From Pachyseris speciosa (lineage: Eukaryota > Cnidaria > Anthozoa > Scleractinia > Pachyseridae): 64,000 nt of DNA. A model generated the notes under the pieces. The model was not told the origin of the DNA. It searched no databases and saw only the letters and a program-made list of their open reading frames with translations. A program made the position numbers and the translations under genes. The stretch is from positions 305,001-369,000 of the forward strand of contig JAEMWC010000249.1 in the NCBI GenBank assembly GCA_016490735.1, written 5' to 3'. Shown piece after piece: positions 3,366-60,300 of this stretch (position 1 is the first letter of the stretch; each line of letters starts with the position of its first letter).

Positions 3366-3456
3366 ACTCAGAAATCTGGAGTTATTAAAATCGCCTTCGA
3401 AGTGGTCTTATGAGCAGATTGTTGTAAAAGGGCGAATCTGACGACTCGCGGGAACC

Positions 3457-6400
3457 ATGAATGGGAACAAGATGCTGAAGAATCTGATAAAGTTTCGCGA
3501 CAGCCATCGAAATTTTGTGAGGAAAACAATCGCTCATGCTCAAGAATTAATCGCTGGAGGGAATCCCATCGAAGTGAGAAGGCTGAAACTTCTTCGTACC
3601 GCTCTTCAAACCAAGTGTTCGGAGTTTCAGGTTCTGGATCGCGACATAGTCGAGCTTCTAGAGGATGAGTCAGAGATTGATACTGATGTTTCTGAGAGCT
3701 GTAATCTAACAAGTGATATCCAGGTGTCTATAGTGGATTTAGAATCTGCATTGACAGCGCAAGAATCTCAAGGACAGAATCAGCAATTGCCCCCAGTCTC
3801 GCAGCAATCCATTTCTCCAGAAAGCGCGGGAATTTCCCAAAGTTGCACTTCGAAAGTTTACACGCACGCAAAGCTACCTAAGCTTGAGCTGAGAAAATTC
3901 CACGGAAACCCCATCGAGTAGTATCCCGTTTGGCAATCTTTCGAGTCAGCAGCTCACAAGAATCCAAACCTGTCCGGAGTGAATAAATTCAACTATCCAA
4001 AGTCTCTCCTAGCAGGCACTGCCCAAAGTGTGGTCGCTGGCCTTGCCCTGACGAGCGCTAACTACGAAAAGGCAGTCGAATTGCTCAAACGAAGATTCGG
4101 AAACCGACAGATTGTGATCTCTAGCCGTATGGAGGCGCTCACAAAAATTCCCAAGGTGACATCGATAAGTGAAGTTAAGCGTCTTCGAAGCTTGTACGAT
4201 ACAGTGAAGTCGCATGTTCGTGGGTTAGAAAGTATGGAAATTTCCTCTGATATGTTTGGTTGCTTCTTAACGCTGATTATTATGCAGAAATTACCGGAGG
4301 AATTCAGAATTGCTATTTCACGGAATTAGGAATCGGAAACGTGGGAATTGAAGGATATTTTGCGTGAATTTCACAAGGAACTGCAATTACGAGAACAATG
4401 TGTGGTGAACTCTAAGGATATCAGGCCCTCAAGCTCGTGTCAAAGAGGTGAGTCACACTTTTCTACTATTGCTTTGTACTCTGACAGCGCTAGGAACAAG
4501 CAGTTCTCTCGTGTATGGTGTTCGTTTTGCAATCAAGACCATCAGAGCTCTAAATGTAATGTTGTCACAAGTGCTGAGTCTAGAAAGCAAGTTCTTAGGA
4601 GGAAGGTCAGATGTTATCTTTGTCTCAAACCTGGGCATCTGTCACGCAACTGTAAGACCACTGTGAAATGTTTCAATTGTCAAGGAGCCCATCATGTAGC
4701 TATTTTTGATAGTTATGAACAAACTCTGGGAGAGCAAGAAGTTGTAGGTCCAGACAATGACAGCCATCCACTAAATCTCCGTCTCGTTTTTGATTCGTGC
4801 AGTCAGCGATCTTATGTGACTCAGCGTGTTAAAGACAAACTGGATCTACAAGTTCTTGGTAAAGATTCACTTCTGATCAAAGCTTTTGGAAAATCAGATG
4901 CCAGGCTACGAACATGTGAAATTGTTCAAGTGGGCATCAAAACCATATGTGATGCAACTGTGTATATTCAAGCTTATGTAGTACCAGTGATATGTGGCCC
5001 CCTGACTCAACAATCCACCGAGCTTACTCAGTGTAGCTACGAACATCTCCGTGATCTTCCTCTGGCTGACAGGGCTGGTGGAGGAGACGTAACAGTCAGT
5101 ATTCTCATTGGTGCTGACTACTACTGGTCCTTGGTTGAAGGTACTATCATAAGGGGTGCGCCATGGGAACCTGTTGCCTTAGCTACAAAACTAGGATTTG
5201 TCCTCTCTGGACCCACTATGGTCATGACTGACAATGGCCATGCCAACACTGTGAATCTTACCGCGACTCGTGTCCTGAAAGTAGAATCAAGTGTTGTCCA
5301 TCATGATGAGCTTGCATCTGAACTGAGAAAATTCTGGGACTATGAATCTCTTGGAATCCAAGATAACAGTGTGACTCTGTACGACAAGTTTGTCAGTGAA
5401 GTTGAATTCGTGGAAGGAAGGTATCAAGTGCGGCTACCCTTTAAGGAGGATCATGAGCTTCTTCCAGATAATTTTGTGTTATGCAAATCGAGGCTGGTGT
5501 CACTCTTGAAGCGACTGAGTCTTAAGCCTGATGTGTCAAGGCACTACAATGATGTCATACAAGAGAAGCTGAAAGAAGGAATTGTTGAACCAGTGTAACA
5601 AGGGACTAACATTGGTGTGGGAAAGGTGCATTACATCCCTCATCATGAAGTGATTGGTGTTGATAAGGAAACCACGAAGTTGCGCGTGGTTTATGATGCC
5701 AGTGCTAGAGCAGAAAGAACCACACCTAGCCTTAATGACTGTCTTTATGCTGGTCCACCGCTGTCTCCCCTTATCTATGACATCCTGTTGAGGTTCCGTG
5801 TTCATAAGGTGGCCATCACAGGAGACATTGAGAAAGCCTTTCTGAATGTTTCAGTTGACCCAAGAGATCGTGACTATCTTCGCTTCCTGTGGGTTGATGA
5901 CATCACCAGCAAACACCCAAATCTTCAAGTTTATCGATTTGCAAGAGTTGCTTTCGGCGTTTCTTCAATCCCCTTCTTGTTAAATGCAACCATTCGTCAT
6001 CACCTAACCTCCACTGACATTTCCAAAGAATTTGCTGAGAGTGTGTTGAAAAGCTTGTATGTGGATGACTTTGTTGGCGGAGACAATTCTGATGATCTAG
6101 TTCTCGAGATGTACAACAATCTGAAGTCATCCTTCAAGAGTGGAGGATTCAATATGCGAAGGTGGGTTTCTAGCTCTGCACTAGTACAGGAAAGAGTTGA
6201 AGAATCTGAAAGTGAGTTGCTCCAGGTCAATGAAGTTCCAACTCAATCTGCTGAAGAACACCAGGTTCAAGAGGAAAATCAGACTTTCTCAAGTTCTCTG
6301 TTCGAGACAAGGAACAACACCAGCACTGTAAGGTGTAAAGTACTTGGAGATGGATGGGACAGTCAGAAAGATGTGCTCTCCCTGGACCTGGCCTCTCCAT

Positions 6401-8822
6401 TGGGATCCAAAAGTAGTGATCCTGTTACAAAGAGAACTATTCTTGGTACGACAAGTAAGCTGTATGACCCCCTTGGTCTACTGAGCCCGGTCATCATTCT
6501 GTTGAAGATCATCTTCCAATCTGTTTGTAAGTCTAAGATGGACTGGGACGACCCTGCTGATTCATTTCTTCATGAACAGTGGCTGAAGTTTGTTCAAGAT
6601 GCGAAGGAAGTCGGAGCAGTACAATTGAAGAGGCATTATTTTCATGGTTCGTCATCAGTAGAATTGCAAGGCGTCCAATTCCATGGATTTGCTGATGCAT
6701 CTGAGAAAGCATATGGAGCAACTGTCTATTTACGCATTAAATTAACTGATGGAACTGTATTCACCCAGCTTGTGTCATCGAAAACTCGAGTTGCACCCAT
6801 CAATGGAGACACTATACCCCGACTGGAATTACTGGGTGCTCTGATTTTGGCTCGATTGATTAACACTGTCTTGACAGCATTTGAAGGAACACTGAACGTT
6901 GATTCGGTATTCTGCTGGTCAGATTCTCAAATTGCTCTGTGGTGGATTTGGGGTGCAAACAGAGAATTTAAGCAATTCGTTCAAAGTAGAGTGGTGGAGA
7001 TTCGTCGACTTGTGAAGCCAACTCAGTGGGATTACTGCCCCTCAGATTCTAATCCAGCTGATATCTGTTCTCGTCGTTCATTGGCTTCTAAGCTTGTGAC
7101 CAATCACTTGTGGTGGAATGGCCCTGAGTTTCTTCTGAAGAGTAAGGAGGTCTGGCCGCATCTTCCAAAGAATTCTGAGGCCACAAGCAATGAATCAGAT
7201 CCTCGCCTTGAACTGAAGAAAGGAACTTTGACTAGTCGAAAGAAAAAGCGTAACAGTACCGTTCTTGCGAACGTTGTCTCTAATAGAGTAACGTCAGGGA
7301 ATCCAGTAACTCTTGGCCGCATCATTCTTTTGGAAAGGTTCAGTAGTCTACAAAGACTAGTACGAGTTACCGCGTATGTTTTGCGTTTTGTATCTAATCT
7401 GAAGCGAAGACGAGTCAAGAAGGAGTTGATTGTTGGAGAATTAAAGCTAGAAGAGCTTGATCAAGCTAGAGAACTTTGGATTAAGGAGGTGCAAAGAACT
7501 GTTCTCGAAGACAAGACATTTGACCAGGTCAAGGTCTCGTTATCACTCTTTACAGATGACAAGGGAATTCTGAGGTGTGGAGGCCGTCTCAAGAATGCAC
7601 CAATTCCATTTAACGCTCGCTTTCCGATATTTCTGCCAAGATTGTCTCACTTCACAGACTTGGTGATCAGGTTCTACACAACGGTGTTAGAGAGACACTG
7701 ACAGAGCTAAGGTCCTGCTTCTGGGTGACAAAGGGAAGACAAGCTGTCAAGACTGTGATTAGAAGATGTTCTGTTTGTAAGAAGATAGAAGGTAGAAACT
7801 ACGCAGTTCCTCCTTCCCCTCCTCTGCCTGATTTCCGGTTAAGCGATGAGTTTGCATTCACGCGCGTTGGAGTGGATTTTGCTGGTCCCATGATTGTCAG
7901 GGACGTATTTTATAAGAAAGGAGAGATGAACAAAGTGTACATAGCCTTGTTCACATGCGCTACAAGCTGAGCTGTTCACCTAGAACTTGTGCCAAGTCTG
8001 AATGCAGAAAGTTTTATCGGAGCCCTTACTCGATTTAAGGGAAGACGCGGAACCCCAACCTTGATTGTCAGTGACAATCGAAAGACATTTAGGGACTCAA
8101 GGGTGCAGGCCTATTGTCAGCTTGATGGCACGAAATGGAGGTTTAATGTCGAAGCAGCCCCTTGGTGGGGTGGTTTTTTTGAACGGCTGGTAAAATCTGT
8201 CAAGTTAAGTTTGAAGAAGTGTCTACGCAATGCTCCATTGAACTATGACGAACTGTCTACTGCCCTGGTAGAAGTTAAAGCGGTCTTGAATTCGCGTCCA
8301 CTGACTTACGTCTACAATGAAATCGATGAGCCACTGACGCCTTCTCATCTGGTGATTGGCCGTAGAATTCTGTCAATTCCATCTAAGAGCTCTTCCAACG
8401 AAGTTTCGCAAACGAAGGAAACGCTCACAAAGAGAGCAAGGTACTTGCAGCGCATCCTGGATTATTTCTGGAACCGATGGCGATCGGAGTATCTGACACA
8501 ACTAAGAGAAAAACATCATTGTTCTAAGAGTGTAAACTCGCTGCGTAAGGTTCAAGTGGGAGATGTAGTGTGCATACATGAGAACAAGATTCCAAGACAG
8601 CTGTGGCGCCTTGGAAGGGTTCAGCGTTTACTTCCTGGTCGAGGTGGTGAGGTGCGAAGTGCAGTAGTGAGAGTAAAGTCCGGAAATTCGCCTACTTCAG
8701 AATGGAGACGTCCTGTGCAGAGGCTCTACCCCTTGGAAGTGATCGAGCTGGATACCGAACCTGCCAACCCTGAGCCTCAGAGAGCAAACGTTATTCCTAT
8801 TAGAGTCGTGAGGGATAAGGAT
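3457..8822 (+). pseudogene. BEL/Pao Gag-Pol polyprotein, broken
   Basis: This is the single long reading frame of the element. Seen in order: Gag (3457-4440) with the DUF1759-type stretch KLPKLELRKFHGNP; two cysteine/histidine knuckles (about 4520-4690); a DUF1758-type aspartic protease (about 4770-5180, FDSCSQRSYVT); reverse transcriptase (about 5600-6300) with the catalytic YVDD at 6058-6069; an RNase H-like region (about 6650-7100); integrase with CSVCKK zinc residues, catalytic D in GVDFAGP, D in VSDN and E in GGFFERL (7750-8240); and a DUF5641-type C-terminus (8460-8740). Breaks: TAG at 3919, TAG at 4327, TAA at 5596, a frameshift near 7680-7700 and TGA at 7968. The frame then runs into the Gypsy LTR at 8826. 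Past that insertion the frame resumes and stops at 14469-14471. The domains and order are known family features; the breaks are read directly. Confidence 0.93.
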
Positions 8823-8825
8823 GTC

Positions 8826-8977
8826 CGCCAGCAGGCTGTGCCTGCGGCAATGTTTGTTGTATATGCGTGCGCATGTTGGCCTCGTGTTGTGTTACAGACG
8901 GCCATTTTTAGTTAGGGCTGTATTAAAGCTGCTACTGTTTACTTCGTTGTGGCGTTCTCGTCTCCTTAACACTGGCG
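8826..8977 (+). repeat. Gypsy 5' LTR
   Basis: The repeat is 152 bp, with termini CGCCAG and CTGGCG forming a perfect 6-bp inverted repeat instead of the usual TG...CA. It differs from the 3' copy at three sites (a/g and c/t around 'gttac.gacggc.att', and 'ctactgtttac' versus 'ctactatttac'). Confidence 0.93.
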
Positions 8978-9148: not shown

Positions 9149-10775
9149 ATGAATTCTAACAGAGCTCCAAAGCAATGGTCCCTCACGAAGCACGAAACCA
9201 TTACAACATTCGAAGCCTGAGGGCAGAATCTCCAGTATTCCCTCTCCCTGGACGCCAATTTCGCCCCATTTTTAGCTGACAATTTTTCGTGGCAGAAAAC
9301 GTCGTCCACTTCCCCCCAGAGAGGACTTACGTCTGATGGAGAAGACGTCCCAATCTCCCGTCGACGTACCGCTAATCAGAAGAACGTGCACCTGGAGCTC
9401 ATGTTGGGTCAAATATCAAATTTTTGCCCCGTCATTTCACGTAATACCATCGTGAAAAATTCCACATCTTTCAAGTCCATCTGGCAAGCCATAAGGGCCC
9501 ACTACGGTTTCCAGTCTACCGGTGCCCACTTTCTCGATTTTGCTAGCATTAAGCTTGATGTCGATGAACGCCCAGAAGATTTGTTCCAGCGGTTAATGTC
9601 CTTCATCGAAGATAATCTCCTTATTGCCAATAGCAGCATTACCCATCACGGTGACGTGATTACAGCTGATGAGGAGCTGAGCCCCACACTCGAAAATTTA
9701 GTGGTTTTAACATGGTTAAGGCTCATACACCCCGATCTCCCTGGTCTCGTAAAGCAGCGTTATGGCACAGGCCTCCTTAAAACCGGAAATTTCACAGGCT
9801 TTAGACTCCCTCCTCGGAGAGACTCGCTCCAGCGCAGACTCCAAAGTCCTACGTACCACCGCCGCAAGGTTCAGACAGTTTCCTCCTCGCCCTTCTTACA
9901 AATCGCCTCCTCAGCCATGGGCTCCCATCAAGCGACCAAAGTCTTTTCCATTATGTAAACAGGCAGGGCGCAATTACCAGCACTTCCTAAGCGCTTGCTC
10001 GTATTTACCTCCGGAGGACCGTACATATCTTTCTCGTTCTCGTCTCACTTCTGCCCTTGACGATGAGGACCCTGACTACGCCGAGTATATACCCTCACCT
10101 TTTCTCGACGAAGACGACCACACTCTGTGCGCCTCTGCACGTACAGTTTCACGTCGCGTCAGCACTAAACAGTCGCCCCACTTCAAGGCTTTCTATAAGC
10201 ATCATCCGCTACGACTCACCCTTGACACAGGCGCAGAGACTAGTATGATTAAATCTTCCGTGGCCCGTTCTATCGGTGCTCCCATTAAACAGTCTTCCCA
10301 GCAGGCCTTGCAGGCCGACGACCTAACTCCGTTAGCCGTAGCCGGCGAAACTCACCTCATCTCATCCTGAGCAGATAAACAACTCGCTCTTGACGCCCTC
10401 GTTGTTGATGACCTAGACGTAGACATTCTAGCAGGCACACCCTTCCTGATTACCAATGACATTACCGTCCGCCCCGCTAAGTGCCAAGTACGTATTCAGG
10501 ACTCTGAAATCATACATTACGATCCTACAGATGATACAACCACTGGTTTCCCTGCTGTGCGGCGTGCACACATTTTCATCCTACGCGCTCCCTCTTCTGC
10601 GACTGTTGTGTGGCCTGGAGAGTACTTAGAGCTGGACATCCCCCCTGACCTGAGAGATGATCCTATATTGGCACTTCAACCACGTTCAGACACCCCCATC
10701 TCAAAGCATGCGAAACCTGCCCACATCTGGCCTGAGCCCAAATCTTGGAAGCTGTCGGATCCAAAATCCGTTTAG
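9149..10775 (+). pseudogene. Gypsy Gag and protease region, broken
   Basis: The probable start is the ATG at 9149, because the Gag frame is open from there except for a TGA at 9218-9220 in a context (FEA-stop-GQNLQ) that suggests a former Trp. Gag continues in that frame to about 9765, where the homologous reading moves to another frame. A knuckle-like [15 protein letters not shown] follows near 9950-10000, but the expected first Cys is Phe (FPLCKQ). The protease active site LTLDTGAETSMI is at about 10215-10250. A TGA at 10368-10370 (TCC-TGA, plausibly from CGA) interrupts the protease region. The frame is lost again near 10745, where pol begins. Domain names are family knowledge; the breaks are direct observation. 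Confidence 0.85.
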
Positions 10776-13636
10776 TCAACACTTCCGACAAGCCTAAAGC
10801 CATCAGTCGCCACGAGCACCTCAGCCAGATCCTACCCACTGTAGGTGCCCCGTCACCTACCCCCATCCAGATACCCACAGACCAACCGTCTCCCGTGCGG
10901 CCCAAGTGTTCACCACCCTTTTCGTCTGCTGTGTCCGTTGATCCTGACAACTTACTACCAGATGAGTCCCGCCTCAAATTTCAGCAGCTGCTGCAAGAGT
11001 ACGACCGCGTCTTTGATCCCCGGATAACCGGTTACAATGGTGCAGCTGGTCCCATTCAAGCCACTGTAAACATTGGTCCAGTACAGCCCCCTCAGCGCAA
11101 AGGGCGCATCACGCAGTACTCGCGCAGCCAACTTGTAGAGCTGCAAGCAATGTTCGATGAGCTTGAACAGGCCAAGGTCTTCCGTCGTCCCGAAGATCTT
11201 GGCATAACCGTTGAGTACCTTAACCCGTCATTCCTAGTTAAAAAGCCTTCAGGTGGATACCGTCTCGTGACTGCCTTCCCCGATGTCGCACGATACAGTA
11301 AACCTCAGCCTTCCCTTATGCCAGACGTCAACTCAACCCTGCGTACCATCGCACCCTGGCGCTATCTGATCAAAACCGATCTCACACAGGCCTTCTGTCA
11401 AATCCCACTCTCTCAGTCTTCTCTAAAGTACTGTGGCGTAGCAACACCCTTTCGAGGAATTCGTGTTTACACCAGATCAGCAATGGGTATGCCTGGCTCT
11501 GAAACCGCTCTAGAAGAAATGATGTGCCGCGTTCTTGGTGACCTTATCCAAGAAGGCTGCGTGACTAAACTTGCAGATGACCTCTACTGTGGTGGCGATT
11601 CACCTGAAACCCTTCTATCCAACTGGAGACGTGTACTTGAGTCCCTCGACCGTTGCAACCTTCGTTTGTCTCCTACCAAAACCATCATTTTCCCGAAATC
11701 CACCACCATCCTTGGCTGGATCTGGTCCCAGGGCACTCTGTCAGCTAGCCCCCACCGTATCACCGTCCTGTCTTCATGCCCTCCTCCCCAAAGTGTGAAA
11801 GGCCTCCGTTCCTTTATTGGCGCCTATAAGGTTCTCGGCCGCGTGCTCCCAAACTGCTCAGACGTAGTGGATCCCCACGAGTGCGCTCTCACCGGCCTCC
11901 AGTCTAATGACAAGCTACTGTGGGACGAGAATCTTACCCTCAAGTTCAAGACTGCACAGGAACACCTATCTAGGCACAAATCCATAGTTCTTCCATGCCC
12001 CTCAGATACCCTTTGGATCGTCACCGATGGATCCGTTACCAAGAGAGGCCTCGATGCTACATTGTATGTCTCGCGTGCCGGTCGTCTTCACTTAGCTGGC
12101 TTCTACAGTGGCAAGTTGCGCAAACACCAAGTCACCTGGCTTCCCTGTGAGGTTGAGGCACTATCAATTGCTGCTGCTGTCAAATACCTCTCTCCATTCA
12201 TCATCCAGTCGCATCATCCCACGACTGTATTAACCGATAGTAAACCATGTGTTCAGGCGATTGATAAACTTTGCCGTGGAGAGTTTTCGGCGAGTCCCCG
12301 AGTTACTTCCTTCCTAACAACCGTCAGCCGTTACCAAGTCCGCCTACAACACCTGGCTGGGAAAGCGAACCTACCGTCTGACTTTACTAGTCGCAACGCC
12401 CCCGTCTGCAACGAGTCCAACTGCCAGATTTGCACATTTGTCCATGACTTGGAAGACTCCGTTGTGCGGGGCGTCTCAATCCAGGACATCCTCGACAATA
12501 AGTCCAGTCTCCCATTCTCCACAAGGTCAGCCTGGCTACAGATCCAAAGCGATTGTCCCGACCTCCGGAGAGTTCACGCCCATCTCAAACAAGGCACTCG
12601 TCCTTCAAAGAAACTTACCAATGTTCGTGATGTCAAGCGTTATCTTAACTGTACTTCCATTGCTAAAGACGGGGTTCTCGTGGTCAAACGCAGTCAACCT
12701 TTTGTTCCAGTTATTGAGGCCATCGTCGTACTCCGGTCCGTGCTGGACGGTTTGTTAACTGCCCTTCACATCAGGCTTAACCATCCTTCCCGCCATCAGT
12801 TTCAAATGGTGCTTCAACGTCAGTTCTTTGCTTTGGACATGAACGATGCCATTTCCCGCGTGAAATCCGCCTGCCCCACCTGTGCCTCCCTTCTGTCGTT
12901 TCCCCCCTCTTTGGTCTCCCAGTCTTCTGATGACCCCCCTGAAGTCGTAGGAGTCTCCTTAGCCGCTGATGTCATCAAGCGTCTTCGTCAATCGATCCTA
13001 GTCCTCCGAGAATGCACAACATCCTTCACTGCTTCTTGTTTGATATCAGACGAGAGACATGACACTCTCCGAGACGCCCTCACACGGCTAATCATTGGTC
13101 TACACCCTCTTGATGGTCCTAGAGCGATTGTACGCGTAGATCCTGCTCCTGGCTTTGTGTCCATGAGTAACAATGACTCACTCAAACATTTAAACGTCAC
13201 AATCGAGGTTGGTCGCGTTAAGAACAAGAACAAGAATCCCGTCGCCGAGAAGGCTGTTCGTGAACTTGAAGAAGAGCTCATTCGTCAAGAACCAGGAGGA
13301 CGTCCTGTTAGTGAAGTTGGCCTCGCTATCGCCACTGCACGTCTTAACTCCCGTCTCCGGTTTTCCGGCTTATCGTCTCGCGAATTGTGGACTCAGCGGA
13401 ACCAGTTCACCCACGAACAGTTTCCATTCTCCGATTCTCAATTTATACTCGCTAAACATGACCTGCGTTCTTCTAACCATTCCTTCAGCGAGAAGTCCAA
13501 GAACCCCCGTGGACTTGTTCCAGATTCACCACAACTCCAAGTTGGAGATCTTGTCTACCTCGTCTCAGACAAGGACAAGTCACGTGCTCGTGACCGCTAC
13601 ATCGTCGTCTCCACAGACCCCCCTGGTGTTTCGTGA
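10745..13636 (+). CDS. Gypsy Pol: reverse transcriptase, RNase H, integrase
   Basis: This is an uninterrupted 963-codon frame (the first codon is TTG; it is the continuation of an upstream frame, not a true start). Reverse transcriptase covers about residues 120-330, with LIKTDLTQAFCQIPL and the catalytic box as KLADDLYCGG, that is LADD instead of the common YVDD or YIDD. RNase H covers about residues 420-550, with IVTDGSVTKRG and LTDSKPC. Integrase follows with an HIRLNH...CPTC zinc finger (residues ~680-720), catalytic D in AADVIK, D in VRVDPAPGF and E in NPVAEKAVREL (residue ~840), then a C-terminal QVGDLVYLV segment. It copies and inserts the element's cDNA. The frame ends by a 1-bp shift in a run of six C at 13618-13623. 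Confidence 0.9.
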   Translation: MEAVGSKIRLVNTSDKPKAISRHEHLSQILPTVGAPSPTPIQIPTDQPSPVRPKCSPPFSSAVSVDPDNLLPDESRLKFQQLLQEYDRVFDPRITGYNGAAGPIQATVNIGPVQPPQRKGRITQYSRSQLVELQAMFDELEQAKVFRRPEDLGITVEYLNPSFLVKKPSGGYRLVTAFPDVARYSKPQPSLMPDVNSTLRTIAPWRYLIKTDLTQAFCQIPLSQSSLKYCGVATPFRGIRVYTRSAMGMPGSETALEEMMCRVLGDLIQEGCVTKLADDLYCGGDSPETLLSNWRRVLESLDRCNLRLSPTKTIIFPKSTTILGWIWSQGTLSASPHRITVLSSCPPPQSVKGLRSFIGAYKVLGRVLPNCSDVVDPHECALTGLQSNDKLLWDENLTLKFKTAQEHLSRHKSIVLPCPSDTLWIVTDGSVTKRGLDATLYVSRAGRLHLAGFYSGKLRKHQVTWLPCEVEALSIAAAVKYLSPFIIQSHHPTTVLTDSKPCVQAIDKLCRGEFSASPRVTSFLTTVSRYQVRLQHLAGKANLPSDFTSRNAPVCNESNCQICTFVHDLEDSVVRGVSIQDILDNKSSLPFSTRSAWLQIQSDCPDLRRVHAHLKQGTRPSKKLTNVRDVKRYLNCTSIAKDGVLVVKRSQPFVPVIEAIVVLRSVLDGLLTALHIRLNHPSRHQFQMVLQRQFFALDMNDAISRVKSACPTCASLLSFPPSLVSQSSDDPPEVVGVSLAADVIKRLRQSILVLRECTTSFTASCLISDERHDTLRDALTRLIIGLHPLDGPRAIVRVDPAPGFVSMSNNDSLKHLNVTIEVGRVKNKNKNPVAEKAVRELEEELIRQEPGGRPVSEVGLAIATARLNSRLRFSGLSSRELWTQRNQFTHEQFPFSDSQFILAKHDLRSSNHSFSEKSKNPRGLVPDSPQLQVGDLVYLVSDKDKSRARDRYIVVSTDPPGVS

Positions 13637-44700: not shown

Positions 44701-47700
44701 AAAATGCTAATTAGCTATAAGAACAAATGTAATGTTATACATTGTCATGTTTCTTTTTGTTCTTATAGCTAATTAGCATATTGCATACACTATATATTCA
44801 ACTCTGTACTTTGTAATTTAAACTGAAGATGATAAGTTTCTGTTGAAACATGTTTGTTGTGCATTTCCTTTATATCTGCATGTCAAATGTTACTGCATTT
44901 GAAGTTTAAATGATATAAATGTGTACAATTCTCATCATGGCAGCTACATGCACCCTTAATTAATCAGTTACACTGTATTTTCATTATTACTGATCCCTGT
45001 AAAACCCTGAGAACTCATATACTTAACTTAATAATAAATTAAAAAGGACACAAACCTCTGTAGTTTTAGAAGGCACATAGCTCTGTTAGAAGGTAGAACA
45101 GCATTTGTTGGGTCAAGTTGGATTCCTGTAGTGTAACAGTTTATGGCTTCTTCATACTTGCCTTCCTTGAAAAATGCATTACCCTAAACAATGAAAGAAA
45201 GAATGATAAAAATTTAAACTTAACTGCAGGAAGCTGTAATCCAAAATAATTACTGGTACACATTATAACACCACTTGCTTTGCATTGTCAGGTGTTTGAG
45301 TAACATTTAAAATAATAATATTACATATCATGGCTCCCATAATGGATTTAATATGTGAATGATCATCGCAGTTTTGAACACTACTTACACAGTCCTGAAA
45401 ATAAAGCCTGAAAAAAAATCAGGCTTGTACAGGATTCAAACCCACGACCTCTGCGATACCGGTGCAGTGCTCTACCAACTAAGCTAACAAGCCATCTGGG
45501 AGCTGGTTATTTTGTTGGTTCATAGTATATATTACCCGTGAGAGGTGAATATGTATGAGAATGAATATATGAAAATCATATATTTGAACTGCGGATTAAT
45601 GATTGAACATGTGAATGATCATAGCACTGCTACTTAGGTAGCAGTGAAACTAAAGCCCTGAAAACAAATTCAGGCTTGTACAGGATTCGAACCCATGACC
45701 TCTGCGATACCGGTGCAGTGCTCTACTGACTGAGCTAACAAGCCATCTGGGAGCTCCCAGATGGCTTGTTAGCTCAGTCGGTAGAGCACTGTCATGGGTT
45801 CGAATCCCGTACAAGCCTAGTATACCCATGAGAGGTGAATATATGAGAATGAATATATGTGACCCTCCACAGGAAAACAGGGATAAAGGTGATAGCATGC
45901 TCACAACACGCTAACACAGCACGCTTAGTGTGTCCTAAGACACACTTTATGCGCATATTTAATTCGTTGAACAATAAAGGACACATTAGGTTTTGTTTAG
46001 GATATGTTAACACGCTAAACCTTTTGTTGGATTTGCGTGCTAAACCTTGACATGCTTAGCGTGCAAGTTTGTACACTAAAACACACTACAGCATACTAGG
46101 GCAAAAAGAAAAATGGCAGAAATGTTTCAATATCTTGTCCAAATACCGTATTTTTATTAAGTTTAACGAATATAAATTCTCACAAAGAAAGAAGAAAATC
46201 GACTTTGTAAGGAAATCACTATAAGCGTCCCATCAGACGGCGACGAAAACAGAGACTCTATCAGAAAGAAAACTTAACAGATTGATCACCTTTTAAATAA
46301 AATCTAAGTGATGTACTTGAAATGGAAGAATTATTATGAGTATCACCTTTCATATTTTCTTACTTCGCCGTCCAGCGTGCAAGATTGCCGTTGCTCTATC
46401 CACGGTCGTCAGGTGATATTTAAACACACACACACACACAAAAAAAAAAACATTATCAAACCATCGCTAACCAGTATACGTTTATCGTCTTATTATCATG
46501 GAGAGTTCAAGAACAGAAGTAACTGTTTTGTATTTGCAAGTCATGTTGGAAGATGTCCAAAGTTTTGATGAAGTTGCCGAGTTATACTTTGAAGCGCAAG
46601 ACAATGTTGACAATGAACGAAGAATCACTGTGGGACGATGAGTCAGAGAGCGACGAAGGATTCTATATGCATTGACAGCCTGGAAACAGACTTATTGGAG
46701 AAAGTTAATAACTTCATTCTGTCAATAATACGTGCAACTGTAAATTCGGCGAAAATAAGAAACCGTGTAGCGCTGGCCATCAGTCAAATTGCACGTGCAG
46801 AATTCTGTAAATTTGCATATGCGCGAGAACTTTTCGAACATTCCGCAGTAGCAGATGCACGCGTAAAATTGGTCTTTCGGTTAAAAAGATTGTATTTCTT
46901 TGCTAGTTCTTTTTTACTGCTGATATTTTGTGGGTAATGGGTACAACTGTTTTGATGAAGTAACCTTCTCGCCGCCGCCGCCGCCTGTTGGTAGGGAAAT
47001 AACTTTCAAAACAATACTACGGAAGCGAGTTGGAGTGGTTTTCTTCACTTCAGTTCGGGACGAAAAAAATGCATTTGCACTGAAAGGCATTGAAGTTTTA
47101 TGGCGCTTAATACAACATTTAGATCGACTCATAAGTCATGTATTCTTTATTTGGTAAGGCAAATGAAAACATGAAATTGATGAAACACACCAAACGTGCC
47201 TGCCATGATCCTCTTCATAGTTGACTATTTATGTTTCTTCTGAGTAGGGAGGTTCGATGGATAGGTCGACCTCATAATCGAAAAGGAAATTTGTAACGGA
47301 TTATCCGCCATGCTTGAAACTGCTTTGGGCTACTCATTCAATCGTCGCCTCTTGGAAGCCGCCGGAAATTTGATTGACGGAAGCAAAAAATGCAGTTCTT
47401 GGTTGAGGTTTGAGCTTCAAAGTTTGCATGTTATTGAATAGTGCAGTAAACTGAGACAAATCTAAACAAATCATATCAATTTTTGTTGCTCGATGTTTTC
47501 TTTTAAATCCAAGAGGGGAAATGGAACTGTGAGTTCAGCACGCGTTAGTCAAGCTCGGTCAAGTGTTGTTCCTTCCGGCTGACATACTAGTAAAAATTTG
47601 AGTTCGAGAATTGAGCGACAGTGAACAAACGTTTGGATACGTTGTCGATCTACAATCAAATCCGAGAAGCTTTAAACGTGCGGCCATTTCATGGACAGTG

Positions 47701-50700
47701 AGTTTCACAGAACAGTAAGTAATTGTTTGCATCGCTAATCTCTGGGGGGTTTTTTCGGAAACTCTTTCAGCACGCTAGTTAAATTTTTTAAAGTTACACC
47801 TCGCACGCTAAGCGTGTTGTGTTATTTCGCACACTAACTGTGTTCTCGCACGCTAGCTTTTGTTTTCAAACCTTAACACACTTCTTTGTTTGGCTTCATT
47901 GTTCGTGTGCACATGCTTTATTGTTTTAATAAACAAAGAAGTTTGCTAATGTAGTGTGCTCCTGAACACACTTTAAGCGTGTTAAACCCAATTTCTTTTG
48001 TTTTAAAGTGGAAGCGTGTTGTGAGCATGCTATCACCTTTATCCCTGTTTTGCCGTAGAGGGTCACATATGAAAATCATATATTTGAACTGCGGATTAAT
48101 GATTGAATATGTGAATGATCATCGCAGTTATGAACACTACTTAAGTAGTAATGAAAATAAAGCCTGAAAAAAATTCAGGCTTGTACAGGATTCGAACCCA
48201 CAACCTCTGTGATGATCATTCACATATTCAATCATTAATCCGCAGTTAAAATATATGATTCTCATATATTCATTCTCATAATGTAATTAGCTACACAAAG
48301 GAGACTGGAGAATGGAGCTGATTAAACATCCAGGAAACTACATGTGGTACCGCCATTTTATAATGCTTCTTCAATTGATTGAGAAATACCTTTAGTCATT
48401 TTTAGACAAAAGTCAAATTAATGACAAAAAGAGATCATGGCTGCTACTTCGGGGTTGAAAGGCCATGACATACTGATGATTTGCAAGGATTGCACAAAAG
48501 CTGGAAAGAAGAACTCATTCATGAAGGATGAAAAAATTCCAACAATCGGCGCTTGTATGACACATGAATCGGGTGGATACTACTACTAGCTTTACGCTTT
48601 CATTGCTTGTTTTATTGATATGTGGGTACTTGAAGCCTGAGCATTAGCTATGCCATGCTGATGAGGCCTAACAAGGCCGAAACAGCTGTCCATGGCTGCT
48701 AATGCTTGGGCTCAATCTTTGCTTTGGTAGATTTAAGGGGTAATGCCCGCTACCTTGTGGCCTTAGTGCCCTTAGAGTGGCTTCAGCTTACTAATGATCA
48801 CATTAGTTTGTGAAGTACAGTGTATCCTTGTCACTCCAGCCGCATCCCACAAGCTTTACATTTTCATTTGAATGATAATAGGGATACCTTATGTGTGACA
48901 TTGAGCACTACTCATCTGTTATATCACACTGGACAAAAATTGTTGTCGTGCTTTATAATGTATGCCTTACTGTAAGTTAACGTTTTCAAAAGAAAAACAA
49001 TAAATTAATTTCGAAGTAAACATTATTTAAGGATGAAAGTAATTTACTATGTAAACTCTTTCTTATAACAAAAGCACTAGTATTTCATAGGTGGAATATA
49101 GGTCATCAAGATTTTGGAACCCCCTACAAAATGCTTGGGACCCCAATTTGGCCAGACATACAGCTGTACATTGTACTATTACAGTACAGTATGGGTCCCA
49201 GCACCCAGATTGAAAACACTAGTGCCATCACAGAAATTCTATTATTTCAATACCTTATCCTTTTCAAGCAATGCCCTTTGTAATAGTCTTTCATTCTCCA
49301 CATCTTCATCAGTTTCATCATTTTCATCTTCAGAACTGGAAAATGTTTTCATTTCCTCTTCTTCATCCATGTCTTTTAGCATCTTGTCCTGGTAACAGAC
49401 AGTAAAAAAAAACAATAAATTTCAAGGCTGTGCTCTAAGAAAAAAAAATTGGGAGCCCAAAACTCTCAACCTTTGAAATCCAGGGTGCCCAACATAGTAA
49501 TTTTGTGCAAAAACTAAGATTTCCTTGTTGTCCAAAGGTAAAAGCAAGTCGCCAGGGTAGCACAGTCCTGAATTTACTCTTTGCTTCCAGTACTATGTAA
49601 CAGAACATCTGGTTTTCTGCAAGGCACACTAATTTTTTTGGACAAAAAGAGAATCCTAACCAAAAAACATAATAGAGAGATTAAGATACAGGTTTGGCCA
49701 TCTTACCGCAAACGGCAAACCGCGGTTTGCGGTTAGCGGTTTTACGTTTACCGTCTGCCCATATTCGGGGCTTAAGATTCGTGGTTGGTTCTAACAACAA
49801 ATAGCCGGCCGCCATGTTTGTTTTCATTCATTCGTTCACTTCTATCTGAGCTGAGAAATCGTCTTCAAAATTACGTTTCTATGAAAAAGAATTCGATAAT
49901 CAATAAGCGAAAGAGTTATAAAAGGTAGCATTTCCTCTCAAACGTGGGATTGTGATGTTTTAGGATGCAAAAAACCTTGCGGTAAATCACTTACCTCTAG
50001 AGTGTGGTCTAGCAGTACAAACGTGAACCTCAAACCGCAAACCTGACGGCAAGGCACTGGTCACATGACTTCTTGACGTTCGCGGTTCGCGGGAAAAGCT
50101 GAAAAACCTCGAACTTAATCTCTCTAATTATTCATTTTTAACTTTAAGCTTATTACTGATAACATTACCAGTTCTACTGAATAGCAGGTCATCAATACCC
50201 AGACCAAAATTTGTTTTTTTGTTGTAAGAGATTAAAAAATCTTTGTAAACAGAGAAAAACCTCTCGGGACAGGAGAAAGAACCAACTACAAACTCAACCC
50301 AAGGCATAGTATAGCTCGGAGATAAGCGAACTACGCAGACACAAAATATACAAGCGTTTTTTGCATATAAAGCAATTTTTTGAAGTGTCTAAAATTGCGT
50401 ATCGTATACACATCTGGCCTTTGTTATTCGTAACCATAAGTTCTCTTTGTGTGTAATAATTTTTTTCAGAAACAATTTACCGCCAAGAAGCAAAAATTTG
50501 CATAATTAGAGCATGAATTTGTGGCCTCACAACAAAGTAAAATATGCATCTCTGGTTCTACAAGGCGCACAGAGACGATTGAATCGGCAAAATACTCTGT
50601 CTTAAATGCTCAATTTCGTCAGAAAAGTGCTTATGATGCGCCGTTTTATATTGAAGAGTTGTTTCTTTGGAGGCAATTAGTTTTCTTTTGCACAACGGTG

Positions 50701-59974: not shown

Positions 59975-60117
59975 ATGTGACTGATCATCGCAGTTATGAA
60001 CACTACTTAAGCAGTAGTGAAAATAAAGCCTGAAAAAAATTTCAGGCTTGTACGGGATTCGAACCCACGACCTCTGCGATACCGGCGCAGCGTTCTACCG
60101 ACTGAGCTAACAAGCCA
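59975..60117 (-). repeat. tRNA-derived SINE (family 1), left half of inverted pair
   Basis: Reverse-complement head with B box GGTTCGAATCC and A box GCTCAGTCGG, and tail 'aagcctgaaatttttttcagg'-like, ending at 'actgcgatgatcagtcacat'. Confidence 0.88.
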
Positions 60118-60300
60118 TCTGGGTAGCTCAGTCGGTAAAGCGCTGGCGTGGGTTCGAATCCCGTACAAGCCTGAAATTTTTTCAGGCTTTATTTTCACTA
60201 CTGCTTAAGTAGTGTTCATAACTGCGATGATCAGTGACATATTTAATCATTAATCCGCAGTTCAAATATATGATTTTCATACATTCATTCTCTCTATATG
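60112..60300 (+). repeat. tRNA-derived SINE (family 1), right half of inverted pair
   Basis: It starts inside the A box (TAGCTCAGTCGGTAAAGCG) and lacks part of the anticodon arm. It continues through GGTTCGAATCCCGTACAAGC to the complete tail. With the left half it makes a ~300-bp palindrome. Confidence 0.88.

Follow-up and report, generated by a model that had tools for sequence, protein, structure and literature searches.

Deep in the 64,000-nucleotide window of Pachyseris speciosa DNA analysed here lies a hammerhead-bearing retrozyme copy, of a family probably spread by a Penelope-type insertion from two start sites that yields two arms, of which the copy in the window has one; the probability of this reading is put at roughly 0.7. 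Its main support is a two-ended, mirror-image footprint that occurs both in the retrozyme family and in a Penelope-like element of the same genome, which makes the reading open to testing at predicted start sites. The footprint also suggests a simple rule for how Penelope-like elements insert: each of the two start sites gives one arm.

The type I hammerhead, long helix I included, occupies 48634-48712 on the plus strand. Its core (48652-48696, +) comprises, all on the plus strand, CTGATGA (48658-48664), a GGCC/GGCC helix II (48665-48668 with 48675-48678, around UAACAA), GAAA (48679-48682), the palindrome CAGCTG as helix III (48683-48688) and the cleavage triplet GTC (48688-48690), with the predicted cleavage point between 48690 and 48691. 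The first-pass annotation had claimed that all core positions are present, that helix II is perfect and that helix I is long and paired around an internal loop, and the sequence and folds bear out all three statements. Helix I is made of a 6-bp inner helix (GCCATG/CATGGC), a UAU/U internal loop and a fully paired 15-bp outer helix (AGCCTGAGCATTAGC/GCTAATGCTTGGGCT). The loose core pattern CTGANGAN{8,30}CGAAACNNNNGTC has one match in the window and 0 in 100 shuffles, while the fold of 48630-48716 (z = -6.07) was equalled by 0 of 200 shuffles.

The covariance check proposed in the annotation gave a divided result. The Rfam model Hammerhead_1 (RF00163) scored 33.9 bits on the core (E = 1e-6, 551 bases searched), just under its cut-off of 34 by 0.1 bit, and the model that Rfam names HH9 (RF02275) scored 32.5 bits over 48637-48715 (E = 2.9e-4, window searched), well under its cut-off of 52. 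Both models thus matched and both matches were under the cut-off, and the hammerhead at 48634-48712 was not among the matches of an Rfam search at gathering thresholds. Core residues are conserved, three helices are present and helix I is the open one, as in type I hammerheads; judged from its sequence, the feature is a real ribozyme motif.

Folding models favour a dimer for the palindromic helix III. In RNAcofold two copies form two hammerheads with a common 8-bp ACAGCUGU helix III (-41.5 versus 2 x -18.8 kcal/mol). For the monomer, RNAfold favours a non-hammerhead core pairing (-46.5 kcal/mol) over a hammerhead without helix III (-38.6 kcal/mol), and a hammerhead with a two-pair helix III is predicted at -37.6 kcal/mol. 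These predictions agree with the earlier proposal that the palindrome points to a dimer, and it is fair to predict action as a dimer. The claim that helix III has no loop does not necessarily hold, since A-U and C-G pairs could form beneath an AGCU tetraloop. Such a two-pair monomer is likewise possible, and passages of Cervera and de la Pena 2020 on the non-LTR retrozymes of stony coral, mussel and axolotl (PMC7229834), in which the two-pair tetraloop form is compared with invertebrate hammerheads, describe efficient cleavage by a coral monomer hammerhead, so that the dimer may be dispensable. Among sampled copies the helix III palindrome is kept (GAAAC followed by AGCTGTC in 91 of 101), loop 2 is TAACAA in 91 of 101 and, of the 97 copies with GTC, 80 keep every pair of the inner helix I; the internal loop and the hexaloop, putative partners in a tertiary contact between loops 1 and 2, are present and mostly conserved.

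The ribozyme had been described as a single copy. This is true of the window but not of the genome (984 Mb, 2368 contigs), in which exact matches to the core pattern CTGATGAGGCCN{2,12}GGCCGAAAC number 6,748 (3413 + 3335), with 0 matches to a reversed-pattern control over the same sequence. Some of these matches stand in tandem, mostly 254-259 bp apart, which is the arrangement that the annotation had proposed to look for. The unit of 254-256 bp has a GC content of 46% and, given its length, no coding capacity. The family therefore has the marks of retrozymes: a type I hammerhead, a non-coding unit within the range of about 170-400 bp, and tandem copies from dimers upward, although the window copy itself has only 1.1 units. 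A type I hammerhead in a retrozyme-type unit also supports the earlier remark that this design is known from Penelope-like elements and animal retrozymes.

Relatives were also sought outside the coral. Four viral contigs (L001-L004), those matched in a first scan, carry a different hammerhead-like motif in a nearly identical context, and on that scan viral contigs were rejected as a source of relatives. A second scan gave at least 120 matches. The prokaryote genomes scanned for relatives gave 0 matches.

Insertion anatomy was read from 74 loci, consisting of the window copy and 73 loci from the first 100 listed places (contigs C1-C6) among the 6,748 matches; as these were picked by exact core, decayed copies are missed. 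Half of them (37/74) are head-to-head, with a minus arm on the left and a plus arm on the right. The 111 outer 3' ends fall at two sites about 40 nt apart, A (47 ends) and B (45 ends), with 19 elsewhere, the class limits (A = u122-140, B = u160-182) having been set after the ends of the loci had been seen. Inner 5' ends fall mostly elsewhere (A 9, B 11, elsewhere 91, of 111). In the 37 head-to-head loci the outer ends are A/B in 27, A/A in 0 and B/B in 0, and in the other 10 an end lies outside both classes. The order of the two ends is even (13 A-left, 14 B-left), and 27 unlike pairs out of 27 would have a probability of 7e-9 if ends were independent and even. One-armed loci, also 37, end at A (15), at B (14) or at other positions (8).

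Target duplications of at least 9 bp flank 32 of the 74 loci (shuffled flanks mean 0.15, largest 3) and those of at least 12 bp flank 22 (shuffled flanks 0). Read off the list, 25 of the 27 A/B loci have a duplication of at least 9 bp, one of which (L070) is a TACA microsatellite. L006-L008 have a common right flank and L076-L078 have both flanks in common; of these loci, L007 alone belongs to the A/B set. Three further loci depend on the scoring rules: L022 and L074, whose second arms lie about 210 and 310 bp off, were scored one-armed under a 60-bp rule, and L072, which ends at u121, one base beyond class A, was scored atypical. A match of at least 7 nt near the 5' end, as expected of a hidden arm, was found in 4 of 29 one-armed loci compared with 10 of 203 control windows. 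A few one-armed loci thus appear from their sequence to be really two-armed, at least L035, which has the clearest match (18 nt). Between A and B a stem-loop is weakly predicted (-2.5 kcal/mol).

The same anatomy is found in a resident Penelope-like element, which has RVT_1 and GIY-YIG in one frame and a minimal hammerhead downstream of the endonuclease. A search of the genome with the GIY-YIG profile PF01541 gave 150 scored matches among 5249 candidates; where two listed matches lay less than 6 kb apart on a contig, a count by eye gave minus-then-plus in 20 of 21 cases and plus-plus in 1. Nine loci of the resident element were looked at, of which L095 (masked stretch) and L105 (cut) were unreadable for outer ends, and 7 of 7 readable head-to-head loci were A/B, with shared flanks or duplications of 11-12 bp. 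Two end classes, one longer by a tail, as expected of a client of Penelope-like machinery, are therefore common to the retrozyme and the resident element, with an A-B distance of about 40 nt in the former versus about 90 nt in the latter. Common end sequences were not found: the retrozyme unit had no convincing similarity to 30 fetched GIY-YIG loci, the one match being of 25 nt (E = 0.057). A further locus found through its GIY-YIG domain, L108, was set aside as not Penelope-like, since its frame joins this domain to a superfamily 1 helicase-like domain.

A biochemical basis for two ends is available from passages of PMC11167929, in which a Penelope-like protein cleaves and extends both target strands from two adjacent internal starts within an AC-rich stem-loop region. 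What lies between these starts corresponds to the tail, which is there termed unique to Penelope-like elements. As the start sites in that account do not differ between the strands, it leaves the strict A/B pairing unexplained.

Head-to-head arms with target duplications are also produced by L1 twin priming. This, and the fact that copies of a tRNA-headed repeat in the window are head-to-head as well, can be taken to favour insertion of the retrozyme by LINE-type machinery with frequent twin priming. In L1, however, the 3' end alone is fixed and the inverted end is variable, whereas outer ends here lie at two sites and are unlike wherever both could be classed (27 A/B, 0 alike). The resident Penelope-like element has the same pattern, and a LINE-type origin is unlikely. 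Since the tRNA-headed repeat is head-to-head too, this orientation alone is not diagnostic; more weight falls on the two clustered, unlike ends.

The tRNA-headed repeat is about 250 bp long and lies head-to-head in the window at 45396-45818, 48067-48280 and 60003-60292, with a tandem arrangement of 251-bp period at 45396-45744. Its core has 230 + 246 exact matches genome-wide; among the first 100 matches listed, same-strand neighbours 248-262 bp apart occur four times and close minus-plus neighbours twice. The repeat may be inserted by the machinery that serves the retrozyme.

Rare variants reveal the source of the arms. They are common to the two arms of one insertion (Jaccard 0.461 within 25 insertions versus 0.048 between insertions) and, within an arm, to consecutive turns (0.396 in 60 comparisons), of which the longest arm has at least 4; this comparison omitted arms shorter than 60 nt or below 85% identity, so that 70 of the 74 loci were kept. 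Because arms and turns share rare variants, both arms come from one template or source, and the template was circular or multimeric, two forms that the variants do not tell apart. Inverted arms could instead be made by snap-back self-priming of a single cDNA, which was proposed for bdelloid Penelope elements and is preferred for head-to-head copies in the discussion of PMC3846280. Simple snap-back predicts inner ends near the same unit position, but the inner ends of paired arms are unrelated (median circular distance 54), only 2 of 27 lying within 10 nt compared with 2.2 expected. As it does not predict two unlike outer ends either, snap-back is very doubtful for this family.

The observations to be accommodated (the family with its copy number and unit, two fixed ends with A/B pairing, target duplications, the common source of the arms and the anatomy of the resident element) can be arranged in a model of Penelope-type insertion. 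The hammerhead, probably in dimeric pairing, would cut multimeric family transcripts to units of about 254 nt, which would be closed into circles. An enzyme of Penelope-like type would cut the target on both strands, and both 3' ends of the target would then prime reverse transcription on the RNA, one at A and the other at B, about 40 nt apart. Both cDNAs would travel round the template, sometimes for several turns, until their free ends are joined head-to-head, with target duplications of about 9-18 bp as a result. Synthesis of a single arm would leave a one-armed copy like that in the window. In this scheme we infer cleavage, circularity and the responsible enzyme and, from the anatomy, regard the family as presumptive passengers of Penelope-type machinery. 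With somewhat less confidence, it also seems probable that animal retrozymes as such ride Penelope-like machinery, with both strands priming and always A with B, and that obligatory pairing of unlike starts is general to Penelope-like enzymes and perhaps extends to the tRNA-headed repeat.

The copy in the window is an insertion of about 1.1 units of 254-256 bp at 48585-48868 (+), which blastn matched to the tandem unit over 284 bp (93%, one arm). It runs from unit position 150, through its one ribozyme, round to about 169 and terminates at site B; the 39-nt segment between site A (after 48827) and site B (after 48866), as placed from the end classes of the 74 loci, is at 48828-48866 (+). The copy has one arm only and no clear target duplication. 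GGATACT at 48575-48581 (-) is a possible 7-nt remnant of an opposite, A-ended arm but is not significant, and a short hidden second arm was rejected since a match of this length is no better than those in the 10 of 203 control windows. The copy differs from the majority base by 2.6%, which is the sample median (rank 36 of 70 loci). The window feature is, by sequence comparison, an ordinary copy of a non-coding animal retrozyme.

Its location antisense inside an RPAP3 intron, as originally annotated, was confirmed by three minus-strand exon translations: joined manually, they match RPAP3 chains of solved structure (best 6fo1_G, E = 4e-82). As the ribozyme is on the plus strand and the RPAP3 exons are on the minus strand, it is antisense to the gene, within the intron between an open frame with the upstream exon (49242-49421, -) and one with the downstream TPR exon (45028-45183, -). 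The annotation was also right that no reverse transcriptase is nearby. The window does contain reverse transcriptase frames, but these belong to LTR-type elements about 35 kb from the ribozyme; the nine window frames scanned include two reverse transcriptase hits, both of this type, and no GIY-YIG. At 284 bp the insertion could not encode a reverse transcriptase and GIY-YIG of its own, as a Penelope-like element would. Elsewhere in the window, the stretches 3442-8915 and 10736-13636 hold BEL/Pao-type frames (Peptidase_A17, DUF5641) and another one with reverse transcriptase and RNase H domains.

The intact core, the intronic location and the match to the HH9 model, though below its cut-off, would suit a ribozyme domesticated to regulate RPAP3 in the manner of amniote intronic ribozymes. 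Against this, the ribozyme is on the strand opposite RPAP3, has median divergence for its family and is one of thousands, which makes such a role highly improbable. The annotation had also allowed for an orphan ribozyme, which is contradicted by 6,748 core matches genome-wide and by the nature of the window copy as a 1.1-unit insertion; on copy number and antisense strand, an orphan or domesticated intronic ribozyme was rejected. With thousands of copies, neither the intron position nor the antisense orientation needs a special explanation. Palindromic repeats can misassemble, and a DNA transposon might be suspected where ends are constant and interiors vary, but assembly artefacts or DNA-transposon rearrangements are scarcely credible given the matching target duplications, the different flanks of the 27 A/B loci (bar a one-flank repeat common to L038 and L047 and another common to L060 and the one-armed L049) and the presence within a duplication of one-armed copies whose 5' end varies (L027, L028).

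Compared with the non-LTR retrozymes of coral, mussel and axolotl as described in PMC7229834, the family is alike in its type I hammerhead, small tandem unit, GC content below 50%, thousands of copies and duplications of more than 4 bp. Its unit is 254-256 bp compared with 220-245 bp in the Acropora millepora retrozymes described there. Half of the sampled insertions here are head-to-head with unlike ends, a feature without mention in the main text of that paper, supplements aside, and no report of a two-ended anatomy in retrozymes was found in the open-licence PMC literature. HH9 and its relatives, the amniote intronic hammerheads described in PMC6155905, are alike in being type I and intronic, with an HH9 match of 32.5 bits here; unlike them, the coral ribozyme is under the HH9 cut-off of 52, antisense to its gene and repeated thousands of times. 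The retrozyme differs from Penelope-like elements in having a unit much too short to encode their protein, and its ends are unmatched to those of the resident element. Penelope elements are described in passages of PMC3846280 as having inverted parts, most commonly head-to-head, an optional 31-bp tail and duplications of 8-10 bp. In the accounts of PMC11167929 and PMC3846280, Penelope-like elements resemble the family in their head-to-head inverted parts, the optional tail at one end, these duplications, the hammerhead and two start sites for reverse transcription. It is Penelope-like elements that are named in PMC7229834 and PMC7761336 as likely or strong candidates for moving animal retrozymes.
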